From Daucus carota subsp. sativus (Eukaryota > Streptophyta > Magnoliopsida > Apiales > Apiaceae), in contig NC_030382.2 in the NCBI RefSeq assembly GCF_001625215.2, forward strand, positions 48,077,364 through 48,141,363: 64,000 nt of DNA. Reading direction: 5' to 3'. Under the pieces are notes generated by a model that did no database searches, had not been told where the DNA came from, and was given only the letters and a program-made list of their open reading frames with translations. This document shows positions 2,392-27,585 of this stretch, one piece after another. The translations under genes and the position numbers were made by a program. The first letter of the stretch is position 1; each line of letters opens with the position of its first letter.

Positions 2392-2635
2392 CTCCCTTTT
2401 CCTGTTTCTGATGTCGGTATTGTTCATAACATGAGATAAATTACTTATTTATATCTAATCTACAAAACTAAATATAGTCATGAGTGATCTTGTTAGATTC
2501 GTATTCACGAGTACTTTAATACGGTGAAGTTTTTATATTTAATGCTACTACGAAATGAAAGATATTTACGATCAAAAATGTGTGTTGGCAAACGTGAAAA
2601 GTACAAATAGGAAAAGTATTTAGAGACGGAGGGAG
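2392..2635. mobile_element. Stowaway-like MITE (about 244 bp)
   Basis: The left end is CTCCCTTTTCC, the right end is GACGGAGGGAG, and TA flanks both sides. The interior differs from the 304-bp family. A short CTCC..GGAG inverted pair at about 2269-2315 may be another remnant. Confidence 0.65.
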
Positions 2636-4479
2636 TATAGATTTTCTCAAAAGATCATCATGAAATATAGGCTAATTATGGAGCATAACAGAATGGGTAG
2701 GGTTACACTAATATAGTACAGTACATTGTATCCAAAAATCTACGAGATGTGACATGATCATTGATTTAAGTCATGATATTGTTCCAGTTACTATGTAGCC
2801 TGACGTGTTAGAACCGCCACAACGTTCCTTAGTGTGTTTGGCGGGAAGAAAAAAGGCGGGAGGAGGTGGGTGGGGGCCACGTAGGCGGCTATTGCGAGAA
2901 ACAGAAGCGATGTATGTTTAATATGGACCACTCATTTCTCAACTTGCGTATTGCACTTGCCTCTCTTATTATATCACACTCTCCTCCACTCCAATTAGTC
3001 AACATATATTTTTTAATCTCATTTCTTACATGTACATGCATCATGTAAGAATGATGTTTTATGGTTATGTTGCATGTCATGCGCGTATTCTTAATATAAA
3101 TAAACATAAACATGCACGGGAGGATGCAGGTCACGTGACTATGTTTGAGATCCTACTATGCTAGATACAGTAGTACCCTAGTAGTAGGTGTAGCTATACT
3201 TTTGCCGTTTAAAGAATCTGATACATAGCTATGTTGTGTGTATTAAAAAAAGGTGTACGGAGCAGATTATGGGTGGATACAGTCAAGAGAGGGAACAAGA
3301 CTTTGCCTAGTGGACGCGTTCTTTTCTTGTTTTTCACGCCTATTCGAGCTCACCTCACTGCCCTAAACTGCTCTCTTTTTTACTGTACTTATGTTAAGAG
3401 AGTATGCTTTACATTTTTACTGGTTAATAGAATGCTGATAATAAAATTTTTATGGAATAATTATAAAACAAATAAATAATAGCATTTCGATGTTTATTAA
3501 AGTGATCCAACTTCCAATTAGTAAAGACAAGTAATGTTTGATATTTCTAAAAAGGTAGAAATTTGTTATATATATATATATGATTATTGTTTGGATTATC
3601 AATAATGAAAACTTTTTACATATGTTCAACTTTTGTCAAATAATAAAAATTTATTTCAATTATTTTAAATTTTTTAAACTATATTTTAAAATGAGCTAAA
3701 TATACTTTTAATGATACAGTTATATTACATTGGTAATTTTTAGATAAAATTTAATAATTAACTTGTATGACTAAGATATTATTACCAACACGAAAAGAAT
3801 AACAAATTAATATGTCAATTGTTGCATATAGAAATAGTATTATATAATCAATTTTATTAATATTACTATCTCGTTTCTTTGATTTCTATACATTTTTCTT
3901 ATCTAAGACTAGATGTTCCGCTCAACTTTATACATTTCAAAGTTTTCCCGAAATAATAAATTTTATGACTGATTTTCCTATGGTGTACCCGTACATTAAA
4001 CACAAAATTTTGATTAATTCCTCTTATTTATTTTGATTGGTTTACCCTCTTAAATAATGGTGGGCCCTGCATTTACAACAACAAGACCAATTAAAAACAT
4101 TCTAATTCATTAATTCTCGTACTTATCATGTGTCCCATGCACACACTAGACAAATCATTTTAATTGGTTTCCACCCCATTGATAATGGTGTCCCCTCGAT
4201 GCACAAAAATTCACCAATCAAAATCTCCCACCTAAATAGAAGTTTATTTTTTAATAACCTTAAATTACCCGTAAAAAATTGAAATGACAACTTAAAAAGG
4301 ACTGAGAGAATAGCATGTACCTATTGGGCATACAATGAAAAGACCCGTATATAAATTTCAACCACCTGCTTTTTAAAATCTATTAATTAATTATCGATAA
4401 ACCCCACAATTTCACCCAATTTTCCTCGTTACTTTGAAAGACCTGCGGCTCTCCGGAGAGGAGTATGATATTAGTGTCA
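2636..4479. other. Intergenic, no gene seen
   Basis: AT-rich, with a short (TA)n run near 3568-3580. A G-rich stretch near 2840-2890 contains CCACGTAG but I could not attach it to a gene. Short open frames at 2866-3134 and 3231-3479 show no recognisable domain. Confidence 0.5.
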
Positions 4480-5450
4480 CTCACCTCATACATAAATTTA
4501 TAAATGAGAAAATAGATTTTTTTGTCACCGAACTTATTATGTTTGTAGAAACTTACCACTCAACTAAATTTTTTTTCCTTTTGGTCACTGATGTTAGGTT
4601 TGGATTTGTTTTTAGTCACTAACTTAAGTTCGGATATGATTATTAGCATTGCGATAATTTTTTGTAGCATCATTAATACATAGTGATAGTATATAATTTT
4701 TTGATAATATGATGTACGTTTATAACTTTGTATATAGCAATAATAACATAAAATGAGGTGATATAATATTAAAATCAGGAAAAATCGTAATTAGAATTCC
4801 AGAAATTCATTAAATCATCAGTATGGAACCAATGAATTCAAATAATTTATGCTCACCATGATAAAATAAAGTCTAATTGAGTGATACGATGCATCATCTT
4901 TCACTATTAAAGTTTCAATCACCTAGTTCAGCGTAAGATATCTCTTAAATTTATCCTCATAATTCTTAATAACTCTACCTTATTATAATTTTTAAGATAA
5001 AGATAAATAAATAGAGAGGAAAAATTAATTTTCAATGATTTATGAGATTTTCTTTTTGCATATAAAAATTCAAACACTAGATTTTTATTCGGAAGAAAAA
5101 ATAAAATAATTTATGAGAGTACACTTTTAGAAACCGTAAAATGCGTGTTTAACTCTTATCACCGAAGATAAACGATCTTGGGTACATAAAAGTACTATAT
5201 ATAAAAATAGACATATATCAAATCATCAAAATATTACACGTTATCATATATTTTAATAATATTACAAAGAATTAATATAATGGTAATAATCAAATCCGAA
5301 CCTAACTTTAGTGGGAAAAAAATTTCCGAACCTAACATCAGTGATCAAAAGGAAAAAATAATTAGTTGAGTGACAAGTTTCTAAAAACATAATAAGTTCG
5401 GTGACAAAAAAATCTATTTTCCCTTTATAAATATAAAACATTCGATGCAA
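4480..5450. mobile_element. Fold-back / long-TIR element
   Basis: About 150-200 bp near 4490-4665 is repeated inverted near 5265-5440. Both arms carry 'gtcaccgaacttattatg' and a run ending in 'ttaggttcgg'-type sequence. The interior is AT-rich with no gene. Structure resembles a Mutator-like or other fold-back MITE; I did not determine the exact ends or a target duplication. Confidence 0.55.
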
Positions 5451-5927: not shown

Positions 5928-6563
5928 ATTGAATTTCATTTGAAAATTTAGATTTGATCAAATAACTTGTTTGAGAATTTGGATCTGCATTTCATGTGAA
6001 ATGCACACATTTAAATATTAGTATAAATCTGAGAATTTAAAATGACAACTCAAATTCAAATCCTGTCATTTCAAATGAAATGCATGTTGCCAAACAGTTT
6101 TTAAATATATCTTACTTTTAATCATTTATACATAATTATGTTAAATATATAAAAGTTTTCACTTAATTATTCCTCATCTAAAAACCGAAATGGAGATAAA
6201 TGTGGATGGTATGATGCAGATTAGAAATATCCGGACTACCCTACCGCCTTGCAGAAATACACTACTGCTAGCTGTCCTCCACACAAAAATATCTACATCA
6301 ATACGTTTGCGAGTCGCTGCACACATAACACAATGTATCGCACGTGACCCCCTAGCGCGTGCTTTCCACAGTCTCAACTTTTCAGATAAAATCAACCCAA
6401 GAGTATCACGCGCGTCAAAAAGCTATTTTCTCGGTATCTGAAATTGGCATGATATGCATGAAAAAGAGACTGTGATGCTCATGCCATCAATATGCACATA
6501 CACATTTACTTTTGTTAGTTCATTACAGCTCATCACGGTATATTTTATTCCTGGTAAATATTA
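5928..6563. other. Intergenic, no gene seen
   Basis: AT-rich. It contains 'catttcatgtgaaatg'-type short inverted pairs at 5980-6090, possibly a small MITE remnant. The open frames at 6174-6441 on both strands show no domain. Confidence 0.45.
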
Positions 6564-7989: not shown

Positions 7990-9186
7990 ATGCCGGAGTT
8001 TCATAGACTGAATCATAACTCTGGAAAGAAATCGAGGAACAAGCCGGTTTCTGTGGAGGAATCTAAGATGATGATGAGGAAAGTTCGCATAATCTGTCAT
8101 GATCCTGATATGACGGATTCATCTGATGATGAGGGAGGCAATGATGTGAAGAATAGTCGTTATGGGCCTAAGCGAATCGTGAGGGAGGTCCTGATTCCGA
8201 TGGCTGATTGTCCTCAACCGGTTGAGGAGAGCTCTTGTCAAGGTAGCAATAATGGCGAAAAGGTTGCGAAGAAGAAAAGGGTTGTGACTAGAGCCCCCCC
8301 AAGTCAAGCCCGAGCTAGCTCTAAATTCAGAGGGGTTAGACAGCGAAAGTGGGGCAAATGGGCTGCTGAAATCCGAGATCCTTTTCAGTCGAAAAGGGTT
8401 TGGCTGGGTACTTACAACACTGCTGAAGAAGCTGCCCGGGCTTATGACTTGAAGAAGATAGAATTTGATTCTATGCTTGCAGCCGCCTCCTCCGGAAGAA
8501 CTTCTGGAAACTCTAATTCACATGCTTTGCAGCAGATTAAGAATCAACCTGCTGCCTCTGAGGAATCTGGGAGTGTGATATCTCGTGCTTCTCCATCTTC
8601 TGTACTCGAGTTGGAATCATCATCATCAGTTAAGAAAACTGTTGAAGACATCATTAATAATAACACCTGCCCTGCAACTGAGACTTTATCTTTGGCTGAA
8701 ATTGGGAAAGGACTGGACTTGGGATTGGAGCTTGGTAGTTCTCAGAATGAGCAAGGACTGGACTTTGGTATGGAGTTTATTCCTCAGATTGAGCAAGGAC
8801 TTGACACTGAGATGGCGGTTATTCCTCAGGCTAATGGTGCTGGAGTCGATGTTGGTGTCGAGCTGGACTCTCAAATTGCTCAAGGGCTGAAGCTTGAAGC
8901 AGAGATCGGGCAAGAACTGGACTTTGGATTGGATCTTGATGCCTTCTTCCTGGATGATTTTGTGCAGCCCCTGGAGTTTGGTGATCTTGATGATATCCAG
9001 ATTCTTGGACTTGATGATGCTGATCCGAGCGAGCTGCCTGACTGTGATTTCGATGAGTTTGAAAGTGATGAACTGGCTTGGCTCAATGAGATCATGGACG
9101 TACAACCAACGAAGAACGAAGCACCCCGGATGAATGAACAATCAAGGATGAACGATCAACAGTCTTTCAATATAGCATGCCTATAA
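7990..9186 (+). CDS. AP2/ERF transcription factor, group VI (CRF / ERF118-like)
   Basis: Intronless, 398 residues, nuclear DNA-binding protein. Residues about 30-48 ([19 protein letters not shown]) form the CRF/TEH-type domain of cytokinin response factor relatives. The AP2 domain starts at about 113 with [19 protein letters not shown], then [18 protein letters not shown]; its end ([11 protein letters not shown]) is typical of the VI-L subgroup (ERF118/119 type) rather than of canonical CRFs. Lys-rich KVAKKKR at 91-97 may serve nuclear import. The region at about 230-320 is a degenerate acidic repeat built on G-L-D-x-G-x-E. The C-terminal block [20 protein letters not shown] ... DELAWLNE is the conserved acidic end of this subgroup, probably an activation domain. 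The main ATG follows the spliced uORF at 7500-7867. Confidence 0.93.
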
Positions 9187-12128: not shown

Positions 12129-13156
12129 CTATATCTAAAATTATTTCATCGATGTCATCTAGAGGAGAATGTTAACTTGGACTATTAATGGATTTGACAC
12201 ACTTCTAAAATTTACTAAGAAGATTTGTTTAGTGGGCGGCCGAGATATGAAGAAACCAAGAAAATAACAGAAGAGAAAAAACAAAGAAGGTAAAGAAAAA
12301 AACTAGTATCAATTACTTTTAAAATGAAACAAAATGTATTGATATGTGGGCCTTGTGGCCCTGTGTGGATGCTGTGGGCTCCTTGATTTATATTTCTAGG
12401 AAGCTTAGATTTGAAGAAAAGTAGGAGAATCAAGATTTGTGTTTGGACTATAGATGCTATTCAATCCAATAACAATACTAAATGAAAAAGCAAGAATAAA
12501 ACAGACAAGTGTTTGTCCACACAATTGTGATGTTCTGTCCCAGAACTTCTAATCTTCATGTTCAAAACTTTGGTTAGTCAACCATAAAATTATTATTTCA
12601 ATAACTCAATTATTAGACAAGTGGTCTCATTAGGTGTTGGATTTACTATATCACTGTGGTCCTCAAGAGTTTTGGAGGCTTCATGTTTTTAATTATATAC
12701 CAGAAAGTAGAATCCATTGGATCTTCGATATCTAATTTATATTGACTTTTCTTTGTTTAATTCATGAATGCTGTAGAAATAGAATAAACAATAATCATAG
12801 AATAAAATTAAGCAGGCACGTATATCTCCAATTTTAGAAAAGGTAGAATCCAGAAAATATGAATCAAAATTTTAAAAACAGCCAACTGCATATGGTTGAT
12901 AGTTTTTTTTTTATTTAAAAATTTAGTTTGCTCGTATTGTTGATCAGTTAAATACAGACAACCTTTTCTTTTCTAATAAAATTTCCCTTTAAACTTAAGC
13001 ATCTAAAGTTTCTATTAAATATAATATAATTTATTTCCGAAATTGTTTGCAAACTAATGTATTTTACAAGCGAAACAAGGTAATTTTCATAAATTCAACA
13101 TGTAAAGCATATGTTGTAGGGTATAAGTTTGGGTTTTTTTTATTCATAACCACGAT
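12129..13156. other. Intergenic, no gene seen
   Basis: AT-rich; no domain-bearing frame, no repeat arms apart from short direct copies of 'aatcttattttcaaaaatac' at the right edge, which belong to the fold-back element that follows. Confidence 0.45.
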
Positions 13157-13313
13157 TTCAATCTTATTTTCAAAAATACTATTTTATCCAATCTTATTTT
13201 CAAAAATACTACCTTCTCTAAAATATTTTCAAAAATACTGTGGTTGCATATGCAACTGAATTCCTGATTTCAAGTTGCAGTTTTCAAATGTCATTTTCGA
13301 CCTTATCATTGGA

Positions 13314-13377
<64 letters not shown>

Positions 13378-13963
13378 TCCAACATCATATGCAACTAAAT
13401 GCAATTGAAAACTGTAAGTTCCAACTGAAGTATGGGTGCCTCTGGCGGGGTCATTAGATTGCAATAGAATCAACTGAATGCAACCTCATATGCAACTAAA
13501 TGCAACCTCATATGCAACTAAATGCAACTGAAAACTGTAAGTTCCAACTGAAGTATGGGTGCCCCTGGCGGGGCCATTAGATTGCAATGGAATCAACTGA
13601 ATGCAAACTCATATGCAACTAAATGCAACCTCATATGCAACTAAATGCAACTGAAAACGGTAAGTTGCAACGGATGTATGGTGTGCCCCGCCAGGGGCCA
13701 TTAGATTGCAATAGAATCAACTGAATGCAACCATATGCAACTGAATACAACCATATGTATATATATATATGGATTCCAAATATGAGGTCGAAAATGACAT
13801 TTGAAAACTGGAACTCGAAATCAGGAATTCAGTTGCATATATAGTTGCATATGCAACCACCGTATTTTTGGAAAATATTTTCAAAAAGATAGTATTTTTG
13901 AAAATATTTTAGAGATTTGAAAATAAGATTGGAGAAGGTAGTATTTTTGAAAATAAGATTGAA
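13157..13963. repeat. Fold-back element with internal tandem repeats
   Basis: The left arm (13157-13310) and right arm (about 13775-13963) are inverted copies: both contain 'gaattcctgattt', 'ttttcaaatgtcattttcga' and 'ttgcatatgcaac'. Between them lie three degenerate copies (about 120 bp; near 13386, 13506 and 13625) of a unit with 'atgcaactaaatgcaac' and a GC-rich core 'gcccctggcggggcc'. In the third copy the core is in the opposite orientation. No protein is encoded. Confidence 0.8.
13311..13380. repeat. Perfect 70-bp AT palindrome
   Basis: GGAATCGATA, a run of TA dinucleotides, then TATCGATTCC. The arms are perfect inverted repeats, so the (TA)n tract is the centre of a palindrome able to extrude a cruciform. 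Confidence 0.9.
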
Positions 13964-14581
13964 AAAACAATATACAAGATAATTCCCTTATAAATTTTGG
14001 GGTAAATCAGTCCGGGTTGGGATATATATTTTAATTAAATGATATATATAATTGCTTGGTATCATAAGTAAAGAAATAAATTGAAATTAGTTGTCAAAAG
14101 ATATCAGTTATATTTAATTTGGTCTGTTACTTTTATATATTAACAATTTCATATACCCGAGAGCTTTAATTCTCATAGAGTAATTTTTTTATTTATATAC
14201 AACACTAGGGGAAAAAACGCGCTCCGCGCGAGTGAGAAAAATTGAGAGAATTATGGAGTACAAAATATTTTAAAAGACCTGTATGATTTATAATTTCTAA
14301 TGCTTTTTGGTTTGTGTTTGTTATTAAAAATATAAGTAAACATTTTAGTTATAAGGAGTACAAGGGTGCAAATATTAGTTTCCCAAAAGAAAAATGAAAT
14401 TTTATTAAAATTTAAAATCATTGTTCAAGACACGATGGAGTTCCGGACAGACATTCAACGCCACATGACGATTGTTCATTCAATAAGCAGAGGTTTGCAC
14501 TCTTCCACCACTTTACCGAGATAGAATAGATTGACAAAATAGCAACTGATGTCCTGTACTATCGATGAGCAATTTGTCTCA

Positions 14582-14788
14582 CTAACAACTGGTTGCATGA
14601 TCTTCGTCTTGACCCAACTCCCAACTCAACGCCTCCCTGATGCCAATTGCTTCAGCCAATTCTGGCGCAGCTACCAGTTCACATGTTTGATTACGAGCTA
14701 CCATGGAAAAACAGTATAAATTAGAATTCTCAAAAATTGCTGCATGACACCTTTTCATTTGCCTGCTCCACTCATGTATATATTTCAC
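14582..14788 (-). pseudogene. RNase H-like (RVT_3-type) fragment
   Basis: 68 residues ending in LAEAIGIREALSW, a segment typical of the plant RNase H-like domain found in retroelement-derived proteins. There is no full domain and the acidic catalytic set is not visible. It lies within the Helitron, near its 3' end, and is probably captured or older transposon debris. Confidence 0.5.
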
Positions 14789-15236
14789 AAGTGATTTTTC
14801 TTATGTCAACCAAGCCATTCCTGATTTATTTTATAACACATCTTCTTTTTTTTTTTTTGAACTCAATGGCAGGCTTTTCATTACTAATCGGGTCATTCAA
14901 CCAATATCTGCATGCATCAAGCTTTCTTAGACATGGTCTCCTCAAGCTAAAGATTATTTTGTTTATGCATTTTGATTCACACTTTCTGTAATCTATAATT
15001 GACTCCGCACTTTTATATTTTTACTATCATCAGTTTACAGTTTACATTTATTCACTATATGCAGATTCTTTGAGTTTGTTCCACAAGACAAAGAGGATAT
15101 TATATCTGTCATCGTAAAACAATATAAAATCATGTAGTCAGATATGTACCTTAGACTTGAAGAGTATCCTGGATATATGGCCAGTAAATTCTGCAATCTA
15201 GACCATTGATAATTACTATCAAAAAGTAAGTCGATT

Positions 15237-16823
15237 CTAGGTAAAATCATGAGAACTAAGCATCTCACGCTCATTCTTATTGCATAGAAGTGAACAGGCA
15301 TGTGAGCCTGTGTGAAATGTATTCAAGCAAGCACCAGTGTGGGTGTTCAAAAATCTGGTGCACCTATCACCACCACCTCCTCCAGATGCAAGCAGATTTG
15401 CCTGAAACGAACACCAAGCTAGAGCTTTCACCACAGCTGTATGATCTTTGAGACCGTAAAGCCACTGTGTTCAAGAATTTGAAGAAGTGGTGGATCTATC
15501 CCATATGTGAAGGAGATTATCATTTCCTCCATCGGCTAACTGCTGGCCAGAGGATGACCATGTTAGTCCACAAACCTCCTGATGGTGTCCACTCTAGGTC
15601 TCACTAATATGATCACTAATTCTTACATCGTTGTTAACAATCTGACCATCCATTCCTCCGGTAGTTAGTATTTGATTTTTTCCAATCAAGTGTTTCTACC
15701 TAGGAACTGTGGTATTCTCGCAATGTCCTTAGCTGTGGATTGATCCCATATACAATTCAACTATCAGACTATGTAATTCGTTATAATATCAACTCCGAGA
15801 TTGAACAAAAAACTCCAAAAGAAACTAACCTGTCGATTGGTAGTTGAATTCTTAACACTTGTCAACGGACCAAGTTCCTCGCCAAATGTAACTAATTCGG
15901 ATGTAACACCATTAGAAGCATCCAACAGATACACTGTGTTTCCAAGAGCAACTATTAACTAAAACTACAATAAAGAAACGTATAACATAAAAAAGCACCA
16001 GAGCACGTTGCATTAGTTGAATATGGAATTTTGTGACCTGAGAACTTTTACCAAGGCAACAGATAGTTCTTCTGTGTTTAATAACTGATACGGTACATAT
16101 ATATTAAGGTTATGAAATAAGAGAATAAACTTCCACTATAAGAGAAGCAAAAATACTTAGGCTCTTTTTTTGTTTTCAGGAGAACTCATGTTACGAGAGC
16201 AATATATAACAATTAATAACTCCACGGAGCACAATTACACTACAAGAATAATGGTGTGAAAACAACCTCAATATTCCATATACCTTTATTAAGCTAGAAC
16301 TGTGGAATGTAACGACGGGTCTTGGGCTTAGGTTGGTGAACCGCTGTTGAGGAGCAGTTACTTAGAACAGTCTCCACTGGTGTTGCCGCGTTGGAGGCTT
16401 TTTCTTTTAACTCACAGCTGGATTTCCCTTACCTTTCCCTGCCTCTGTCAGCATATAATGCGCATAATCAAAATCCATAACCGACCTATTCGGTATAAAC
16501 ATATCCAACTGCAGATCCCAACCAATAACAAAACCATCAGAATAATCATCCACAAGTGCATATAACAAACATTCTCCACAAATCTAAGACTTTATCCTAA
16601 TCATCAACAATAAAAAACCGAAAAATCAAAATCGTAGACAAACTTAACTTCAAAACCCTACTAAAACACAAATAAAAATTTAAATACACGGATAGAAATT
16701 GATAAAGATAAGGAATTGTACATACATCTTCTCGAGATTTTGGCTGTTGAAGAACTGTTCTTGAAGAGGACATCGAGAATGAGCCTTGCTGGAAGAAGAG
16801 GAATGTACTGATTCTGCATCCAT
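15237..16823 (-). pseudogene. CDC20/Fizzy-like gene, decayed
   Basis: Pieces of a CDC20-type WD40 activator of the anaphase-promoting complex follow each other in order on the minus strand. The N terminus starts at 16823 (MDAESVHSSSSSKAHSRCPL). Next comes a segment at about 16315-16450 ending TRRYIPQ, with a stop and a frame change. Then [17 protein letters not shown] at about 15840-15960, and [20 protein letters not shown] at about 15480-15580. The last piece is [20 protein letters not shown] at 15237-15434. An in-frame TGA replaces a codon just after RSTTSSNS (near 15477). Several linking parts are missing and I could not find the last WD repeats or the IR tail, so a working protein is unlikely. 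It lies wholly inside the Helitron. Confidence 0.85.
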
Positions 16824-17241
16824 TGCGTTAGCGACAACAGGTAATAGATACAAATATCAAAAAAAAATCACACAAGAAAACAAAACCAAAGATCCTGCAA
16901 AACAAATATCACCACAAAGTAAAGTAATATGGAAATCAAAAGCAGCGTAACTGATAATAATTGATAAGCTGAGAAAAGAAAGAGTTCTGTAACTGATAAG
17001 AAATAAGAATTAATAAGCCGGAAAATAAAAGATTAATTGCAAACAAAAACTGAAAAATGATAGGAGTGCTCAGGAAACAGGAAAATTGGATGGAGAGTTT
17101 TGAGAGGTGCCACGTCACTCTCCCAAGAACCTCCTTTATTATATAAATATAATATAATATAAAGATACAGATAATCAGGGCCAAAGTTTGGGCCTGGGCG
17201 GAAGATGTACGGCCCATTCAGTCGACAACAAATTTCTCCAG

Positions 17242-25735: not shown

Positions 25736-26006
25736 ATATAGGTATGTATGTATGTGTAGAAACCTATCTTAGGATTATATAATAATTTTGTAGGTTTTGA
25801 ATTAATTATATATTTTATGCTCGACATCATGTTGTGTAAAATAAACGAGAGGTGTTTTTGCATAATCGTGAAGTGATCGTATTTACTGAGTGAGCAAATC
25901 CATTCACTGTCACATATATTATTAACAACAATTATATGCTGAAGTGGATGTAACATTGTGTACCTACCAAAGTCCTTACTCATTACCGCATGTTCAGTAG
26001 GCAGTC

Positions 26007-26015
26007 TTTATATAT
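26007..26015 (+). promoter_or_regulatory. Putative TATA box of the KCS gene
   Basis: TTTATATAT in 'cagtctttatatatccgg' lies about 90 bp before the ATG at 26104. This argues that the in-frame ATG at 25990, upstream of the box, is not the translation start. Confidence 0.55.
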
Positions 26016-26103
26016 CCGGCTCTTTCCATCACACTTGCACATCTTAATTCTCTTTATCTATCTTGCATTTAGATTTTATACACCAAGAGACATATCTACA
26101 ACA

Positions 26104-27585
26104 ATGCCTGATTTCTCAAGTTGTGTAAAGCTCAAGTACCTAAAACTAGGTTACCAGATTCTTGTGAACCACTTTGTTGCCTCGGTCCTTATAACAATCT
26201 TGGTTTATATATTAAGTGAAGTACTTAGATCAAGTCCTCATGAGATAGTGGCCTTTTGGAATTGTCTTCATTTTGATCTCGTCCAGATACTTTGGTCTTC
26301 ATTTCTTTTTATTTTTATATCAACCCTCTACAATATGTCTAAGCCTCAAACAGTATACCTTGTTGATTTCGCCTGTTACAAGGCTCCTGCAGAGTTATGT
26401 TTTAGTATAAGAGATTACGTTGAACGTGTAAAATTGATCATGTCAGGGCCAGAAAACAAAAATCTTGATTTTCTGCTAAGAGTTTCAGAGCGGATTGGGC
26501 TTGGTGAACGTACTTGTATGCCACCGGCGATACATTTAAACCCTCCAAACCCTACAATGAAAGCTTTAAGGGAAGAAGCTGAGATGGTAATTTTCTCAGC
26601 AATGGACTCATTATTTCAAAAATCTGGACTCAATCCCAGAGACATAAATGTACTAGTAGTAAATTGCAGCATTTGCTTTTCAACTCCTTCACTCTCTGCT
26701 ATGGTGATTAACAAGTACAAAATGAATGCCAGCATAAAGAGCTTTAATATATTGGGAATGGGCTGCAGTGGTAGTCTGATATCAATAGATTTAGTGCGTC
26801 AGCTCCTGCAAGCTCATCCAAGTTACAATGCTGTGGTCGTAAGTGCAGAACTCATGACAACAATTTTCTACAGAGGAAAAGAGAGATCAATGCTTGTTCC
26901 CAATTGTTTGTTTCGAATGGGTGGTGCAGCCATTTTCTTATCAACTAGAAACTCTTTCTGCAACGTAGGGGCCAAGTACCGTCTTCTCCATCTAGTTCGA
27001 ACCCACACAGCTGGTGATGATAAGTCCCATAATTGTGTTTATGTGAAAGAAGATCCAGAGGGAGTTTTAGGGATATGGCTGTCAAAGGACCTACTGGCTG
27101 TTGCTGGAGAGGCCTTAAAACTGAATTTGACATCCCTGGGTCCTCTTGTTCTTCCTGCATCTGAGAGATTTCTTTATATGTTGAACTTCATTGCTCGGAG
27201 GATTTTTCACCTCAGGTGGAAGCCCTATATCCCGGACTTTAAACAGGCCTTCAAGCACTTCTGTATCCATGCAGGAGGACCAGCCGTGATCGACGGGGTG
27301 CAGGATACCCTTCAGCTATCAAAGGAGCAAGTGGAGGCATCAAGGTCGGCATTTCACCGGTTCGGGAATACATCATCCTCATCGTTGTGGTATGAGATGA
27401 GCTATATAGAAGCTAAGGGGAGGATGAATAAAGGCGATAGAATTTGGCAAATAGCGTTTGGGAGTGGATACAAGTGTTTTAGCGCTGTTTGGGAATGCAA
27501 TGAAACTGTCAAATTTCCACCAACTGAACCATGGCTTGATTGCATTGATAACTACCCAACATGTATTCCTCAAGTGGCAAAATAG
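26104..27585 (+). CDS. 3-ketoacyl-CoA synthase (fatty acid elongase condensing enzyme)
   Basis: Single exon, 493 residues from the ATG at 26104 (MPDFSSCVKLKYLKLGY). It condenses malonyl-CoA with a long-chain acyl-CoA in the ER membrane, the first step of very-long-chain fatty acid elongation for waxes, suberin and sphingolipids. Two N-terminal membrane helices (about 22-40 and 60-77) precede the FAE1/CUT1 domain. The active-site set known from FAE1 is all there: Cys221 (GMGCSGS), His301, His385, His389 (FCIHAGG), His418 and Asn422 (RFGNTSS). YRGKERSMLVPNCLFRMGG is also typical. Unusual: the Cys loop reads NILGMGCSGS where most KCSs have a GGMGCSAG-type loop. An upstream in-frame ATG at 25990 would add 38 residues but precedes the TATA box. 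Subfamily is not assigned. Confidence 0.94.
   Translation: MPDFSSCVKLKYLKLGYQILVNHFVASVLITILVYILSEVLRSSPHEIVAFWNCLHFDLVQILWSSFLFIFISTLYNMSKPQTVYLVDFACYKAPAELCFSIRDYVERVKLIMSGPENKNLDFLLRVSERIGLGERTCMPPAIHLNPPNPTMKALREEAEMVIFSAMDSLFQKSGLNPRDINVLVVNCSICFSTPSLSAMVINKYKMNASIKSFNILGMGCSGSLISIDLVRQLLQAHPSYNAVVVSAELMTTIFYRGKERSMLVPNCLFRMGGAAIFLSTRNSFCNVGAKYRLLHLVRTHTAGDDKSHNCVYVKEDPEGVLGIWLSKDLLAVAGEALKLNLTSLGPLVLPASERFLYMLNFIARRIFHLRWKPYIPDFKQAFKHFCIHAGGPAVIDGVQDTLQLSKEQVEASRSAFHRFGNTSSSSLWYEMSYIEAKGRMNKGDRIWQIAFGSGYKCFSAVWECNETVKFPPTEPWLDCIDNYPTCIPQVAK

Follow-up and report, generated by a model that had tools for sequence, protein, structure and literature searches.

The stretch from 14205 to 17165 on the minus strand of the window, by which we mean the whole 64,000 nucleotides of carrot DNA analysed, is a non-autonomous Helitron of 2,961 bp, a well-known kind of gene-capturing plant element, and it carries a broken CDC20 gene. 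The explanation that best accounts for the whole, and that we hold to be very probably correct, is a Helitron moved by RepHel whose family took up CDC20 in one ancestral capture, received an insertion in the second intron of the captured gene, and then spread, lost parts and decayed neutrally.

In element orientation, the Helitron lies between A (17166) and T (14204). Its start on the minus strand reads A|TCTTTATATTATATT at 17165, with TC following A (A|TCTTTATATT), and the 5' terminus, TCTTTATATT...AAAGGAGG at 17130–17165, was compared with the 5' ends of L011–L013, L015–L017 and the second element of L014. Further in, on the same strand, comes the subterminal block TGACGTGGCACCTCTC (17102–17117), which has 2–4 mismatches in the relatives. 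At the other end, folding gives a hairpin with a 5-bp stem and a 3-nt loop, CGCGC-GGA-GCGCG (14218–14230, minus), after which the element closes with TTTTTTCCCCTAG|T at 14205; the terminal CTAG occupies 14205–14208 (minus) and is followed by T (CCCCTAG|T). The hairpin folds at -6.3 kcal/mol, and equally stable shuffles numbered 6 of 200 when 36 nt were folded (z = -2.20) and 30 of 200 when 96 nt were folded (z = -1.08). The 24-base motif spanning it (14216–14239) occurs once in the window, and none of 100 shuffles matched it with up to three mismatches. With up to three mismatches allowed, the 25-base pattern for 5' ends of the family was not matched in the window, owing to extra AT units that the window copy has at this point; overall, the ends of that copy are 70–79% identical to those of its relatives. 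By inspection of the printed ends and flanks, neither the window element nor its full-copy relatives have terminal inverted repeats or a target duplication. The flanks of the window element, joined as an empty site, matched only themselves in the carrot genome. The first-pass annotation had read a Helitron here from the TC after A, the CTAG before T, the terminal hairpin and the subterminal block, and each of these is present as described, on the minus strand.

The same annotation expected the ends to recur in other copies, and a genome search found them to be common to dispersed relatives. The last 176 bp match at least 40 places in the genome, the window included (40 of 66 candidates were scored). 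The 3' ends inspected at 15 of these, mostly the best-matching ones (the window, L012–L014, L033–L041, L042 on C5 and L043 on C1), read CTAG in 13 cases and CTAA in two (L033 and L037), and the next base is T in all 15. At the 5' side, A precedes TC in seven of the nine ends read, two candidates with four mismatches (L035 and L041) being left out of that number; the exceptions are L011, which has T, and an inner end in L015, which is altered. Full copies occur among the relatives on C1, C3, C5 and C7, each in different flanks. Those on C5 (4,145 bp) and C1 (4,154 bp) are 97.6% identical, their flanks differ, and their homology ceases within about 11 bp of both element ends; a second subgroup, at 88–92%, is represented by two further full copies, L012 (C3, 3,495 bp) and L013 (C7, 3,003 bp), and L011, also a copy, has lost its 3' end.

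Some arrangements around these copies deserve separate mention. At about 3360–3432 of L014 (minus), two elements are head-to-tail neighbours: the first has an intact Helitron 3' end, and TA and the second element's 5' end come immediately after it. At L015 (C3:12.46 Mb), a partial copy of the CDC20-bearing element precedes a longer one, the 1.35 kb common to both being 99% identical. In the CDC20 fragments L019–L021 the exon-2 junction differs, and intron 2 of L020 and L021 has no insert. L020 (C8) and L021 (C3) share 97% identity across 3.1 kb, and the sequence fetched there showed no convincing Helitron ends; membership in the same mobile family is not supported for either, as the fetched 5 kb held no 5' end within six mismatches and the sole 3' candidate, in L020, had eight mismatches and no CTAG end. 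An NF-YB-like reading (PF00808, E 7.7e-17) lies on C5 at about 28364960, some 0.5 kb past the 3' end of the C5 Helitron. In the joined L016+L042 stretch it falls at about 5961 and the element ends at 5397, so that it is a neighbouring gene rather than cargo.

The cargo of the window element is a CDC20 pseudogene at 15085–16928 on the minus strand. By blastn it aligns with 3175–5003 of L009, the intact gene at C6:35.9 Mb, whose exons 1–4 and introns 1 and 3 match the window copy in segments of 87.5–96.5% (3175–3696, 3784–3869, 4074–4173 and 4236–5003); identity is 89.6% over 1,469 aligned columns, and 986 of 1,365 coding bases of the C6 gene are aligned. The copying was at the level of DNA: introns 1 and 3 are kept, as is the beginning of intron 4. 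Alignment with a functional CDC20 had been proposed as a way to map the capture, and it does so, placing the cargo between about 105 bp before the ATG and about 65 bp into intron 4 of the C6 gene. On the minus strand, exon 1 with its ATG (16725–16823; 98 of 99 nt aligned) is followed by the retained intron 1 and by exon 2 (16300–16508; 186 of 273 nt), which has an internal deletion common to the C5, C1 and C3 copies. In place of intron 2 and the first part of exon 3 there is a foreign insert (15952–16299), found whole or in part in L011, L012 and L014–L018 and absent from both intact genes compared, L009 and L010. There follow a remnant of exon 3 with a 62-nt deletion (15830–15951; 120 of 270 nt) and, after intron 3, exon 4 with stop codons (582 of 582 nt; 15150–15730, borders approximate), exon 5 being missing. 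Two of the three stop-to-stop pieces of the gene match PF24807 (WD40_CDC20-Fz; E 1.9e-12 and 4.2e-23), with 47.5 and 82.5 bits against a cut-off of 200 bits that applies to the whole domain; the exon-1 piece has no Pfam match. Elsewhere in the 64 kb, blastn with the C6 gene found no CDC20 at E 1e-3, and tblastn gave matches only at E 2.1 to 7.4. The gene was said to lie fully inside the element and on its strand, which holds: within the window it does not continue beyond the element borders.

Intact relatives of the cargo are few. A CDC20 protein query derived from the window matched 10 places in the genome, the window included (48 candidates scored), and besides the window the reading is open over the whole query on C6 (85%), C3 (84%) and C7 (63%); two further matches were at 48–49%. 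With chosen splice sites, the C6 gene has five exons and encodes 454 aa. L010, the intact CDC20 at C3:3.43 Mb, matches the window in segments of 63.6–83.3%. Both L009 and L010 are open over the query, whereas the window copy is broken. In the 8–8.5 kb fetched for each of these two, no family 3' end was found within eight mismatches, and the family 5' end appeared only as one site with six mismatches, in L010. The terminal part of the last CDC20 exon occurs again at 6376–6430 of L009, downstream of the intact gene by about 1.2 kb.

In the window copy, the aligned codons contain eight in-frame stops, plus deletions; five of the stops fall at codons 379–392 and may reflect a local frame shift. 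An intact CDC20 reading frame under selection was not found there. Changes private to this copy number 27, 22 and 14 at codon positions 1, 2 and 3 (p 0.13 for equality), against 2, 0 and 7 on the branch of the C6 gene, and from this lack of a position-3 bias we conclude that the copy has decayed neutrally. Judged by its sequence, it is a neutral pseudogene that would make no working protein, and we claim no effect of the broken copy on the host. Alignment with the intact C6 gene thus bears out the first-pass view that CDC20 was captured with its introns and later decayed.

The history of the capture can be followed in changes that the copies share. The exon-2 deletion has the same left break in the window, C5, C1 and both C3 copies, with differences of a few bases on the right. 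A single exon-2 deletion across all CDC20 copies was rejected, since at that place L019–L021 are unlike the window and C5. In the C5 copy, roughly 0.55 kb of foreign sequence lies in intron 2, and the second half of it is kept by L012 and L011; the window retains 348 bp. The insert is found alone, in other flanks, in L018 (C3:12.095 Mb; reverse complement 2529–3091), possibly its source or a separate mobile copy. It may resemble an exon of calmodulin-binding protein 60; Pfam gave no match at E 1, and that identity is not claimed. In a tree built on the L009 columns, which are unevenly covered, the window joins the C1, C3 and C5 copies with a support of 0.862; the deep node of the CDC20 tree has a support of 0.245, and a single capture is not resolved by the tree. 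The shared exon-2 deletion and intron-2 insert, on the other hand, favour one capture followed by spread and loss and, as other Helitrons carry the same changes, the capture most likely predates the window copy. The simplest reading is a single capture of CDC20, a later insert in its intron 2 and then differing losses. More tentatively, and with somewhat less than even confidence, we suggest an ordered series of captures: CDC20, then a foreign piece inside the captured intron 2, then extra sequence specific to each branch. As the second capture would lie inside the first, read-through beyond the 3' end could not explain it, and this capture, if the order is right, would speak directly for internal acquisition during break repair, that is, as filler DNA.

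The process behind this history can be sketched as follows. RepHel from an autonomous element would recognise the ends, acting in trans, and rolling-circle (peel-and-paste) replication would copy the element into a target between A and T. The family ancestor would have taken up genomic CDC20 in the same orientation, reaching from the 5' leader as far as intron 4 or further, probably in a single event and perhaps by way of break repair. Unrelated DNA would later have entered intron 2, and the core would have spread by transposition, its descendants losing different parts and coming to hold different further sequence, which in the window copy would be the stretch at 14.4–15.1 kb. The CDC20 copy has evolved neutrally.

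The alternative to which we give most weight, unlikely as we consider it, is that several Helitrons separately captured a now-lost CDC20 paralogue that already had the exon-2 deletion and the intron-2 insert. The low support of the deep tree node would agree with this, as would the CDC20 borders, which vary against L009 (3175–5003 in the window, 3341–4738 in C5, up to 4879 in L012). Loss after capture accounts for such borders equally well, however, and is described for maize in the portions of PMC2575219 available; moreover, no such paralogue was seen among the 10 matches of the CDC20 query from the 48 candidates scored. A single ancestral capture with subsequent losses is the reading that we prefer.

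The remaining explanations do away with the Helitron or with the capture of genomic DNA. The retained introns would suit an ordinary duplication pseudogene, resembling a segmental duplicate, with Helitron-like ends there by chance or from a nearby insertion, but the CDC20 sequence ends inside both element borders, related fragments sit inside other elements with the same ends, and end-to-end copies at unrelated sites contradict the idea, leaving it highly improbable. Still less credible is that the gene fragment was captured by a Pack-MULE or another transposon with terminal inverted repeats: according to the accessible part of a review (PMC13317346), Pack-MULEs, too, carry host gene fragments, but the ends of the present element are not mutually inverted and inspection shows no flanking target duplication. 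We attach similarly negligible weight to capture via an RNA copy, as a retroposed CDC20. One gap relative to the C5 copy does coincide with the exon-2 border, but introns 1 and 3 are kept; splicing was rejected as the origin of the gaps at 16300/16301 and 16229/16230, the C5 stretches missing there not being GT...AG by inspection. Capture of CDC20 as DNA by a Helitron stands as the explanation of choice.

Other sequence in and around the element is less easily assigned. A piece at 14780–15054 is 75% identical to two places on C8 (C8:100945 and C8:118704). At 14479–14800 on the minus strand lies a possible, weak RNase H-like remnant: two frames joined across a break match RVT_3 in Pfam with 15.3 bits (E 0.019), below the cut-off of 21.6 bits, and the open piece alone has no Pfam match at E 0.1. 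At L019, the CDC20 fragment has an RVT_3 reading that is open (E 6.6e-21) some 0.5 kb away from it, which makes the RNase H idea plausible, albeit unproven; the RNase H-like piece that had been noticed near the 3' end thus keeps a suggestive match and falls short of an assignment, the match being below cut-off and dependent on the joined frames. At the gathering thresholds, Rfam gave no match in the window. Adjoining the Helitron, at 13131–13970, is a palindromic repeat of roughly 0.8 kb that looks like a MITE-type element; its inverted arms (13248–13335/13753–13840, 92%; 13156–13204/13916–13964, 94%) flank a TA run and about three tandem units of 123 bp, and parts of it recur at 6284–6490 of L010. 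The open genes flanking the Helitron encode an AP2-domain protein (7990–9186) and a 3-ketoacyl-CoA synthase-like protein (25990–27585).

Overall, this is a well-resolved case of Helitron gene capture in carrot, with a donor-like intact gene, partial copies and shared changes, and it is the combination of these that makes part of the order of events readable. Gene captures of this sort in plants have been reviewed (PMC13317346, in the part available); of the three papers found to mention both Helitron and CDC20 in a library of open-licence literature, none is on a plant as judged by its title. Internal, stepwise capture is described for the insect Helitrons Sfru_Hel1A under a filler-DNA model, as far as the accessible portion of PMC6544945 goes, and in our element, too, cargo would have been added within the element, as that model predicts; the host here is a plant, however, and the cargo is larger. 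Closest in kind are the gene-carrying Helitrons of maize and rice, which, in the sections of PMC2575219 available, have TC...CTRR ends, a 3' palindrome, an A|T target and captured gene fragments. The ends, the host and the captured genes differ, ours being CDC20 with foreign DNA in its intron 2, but the window element has all of those features and, as in those Helitrons, its copies keep different parts of what is probably one capture.
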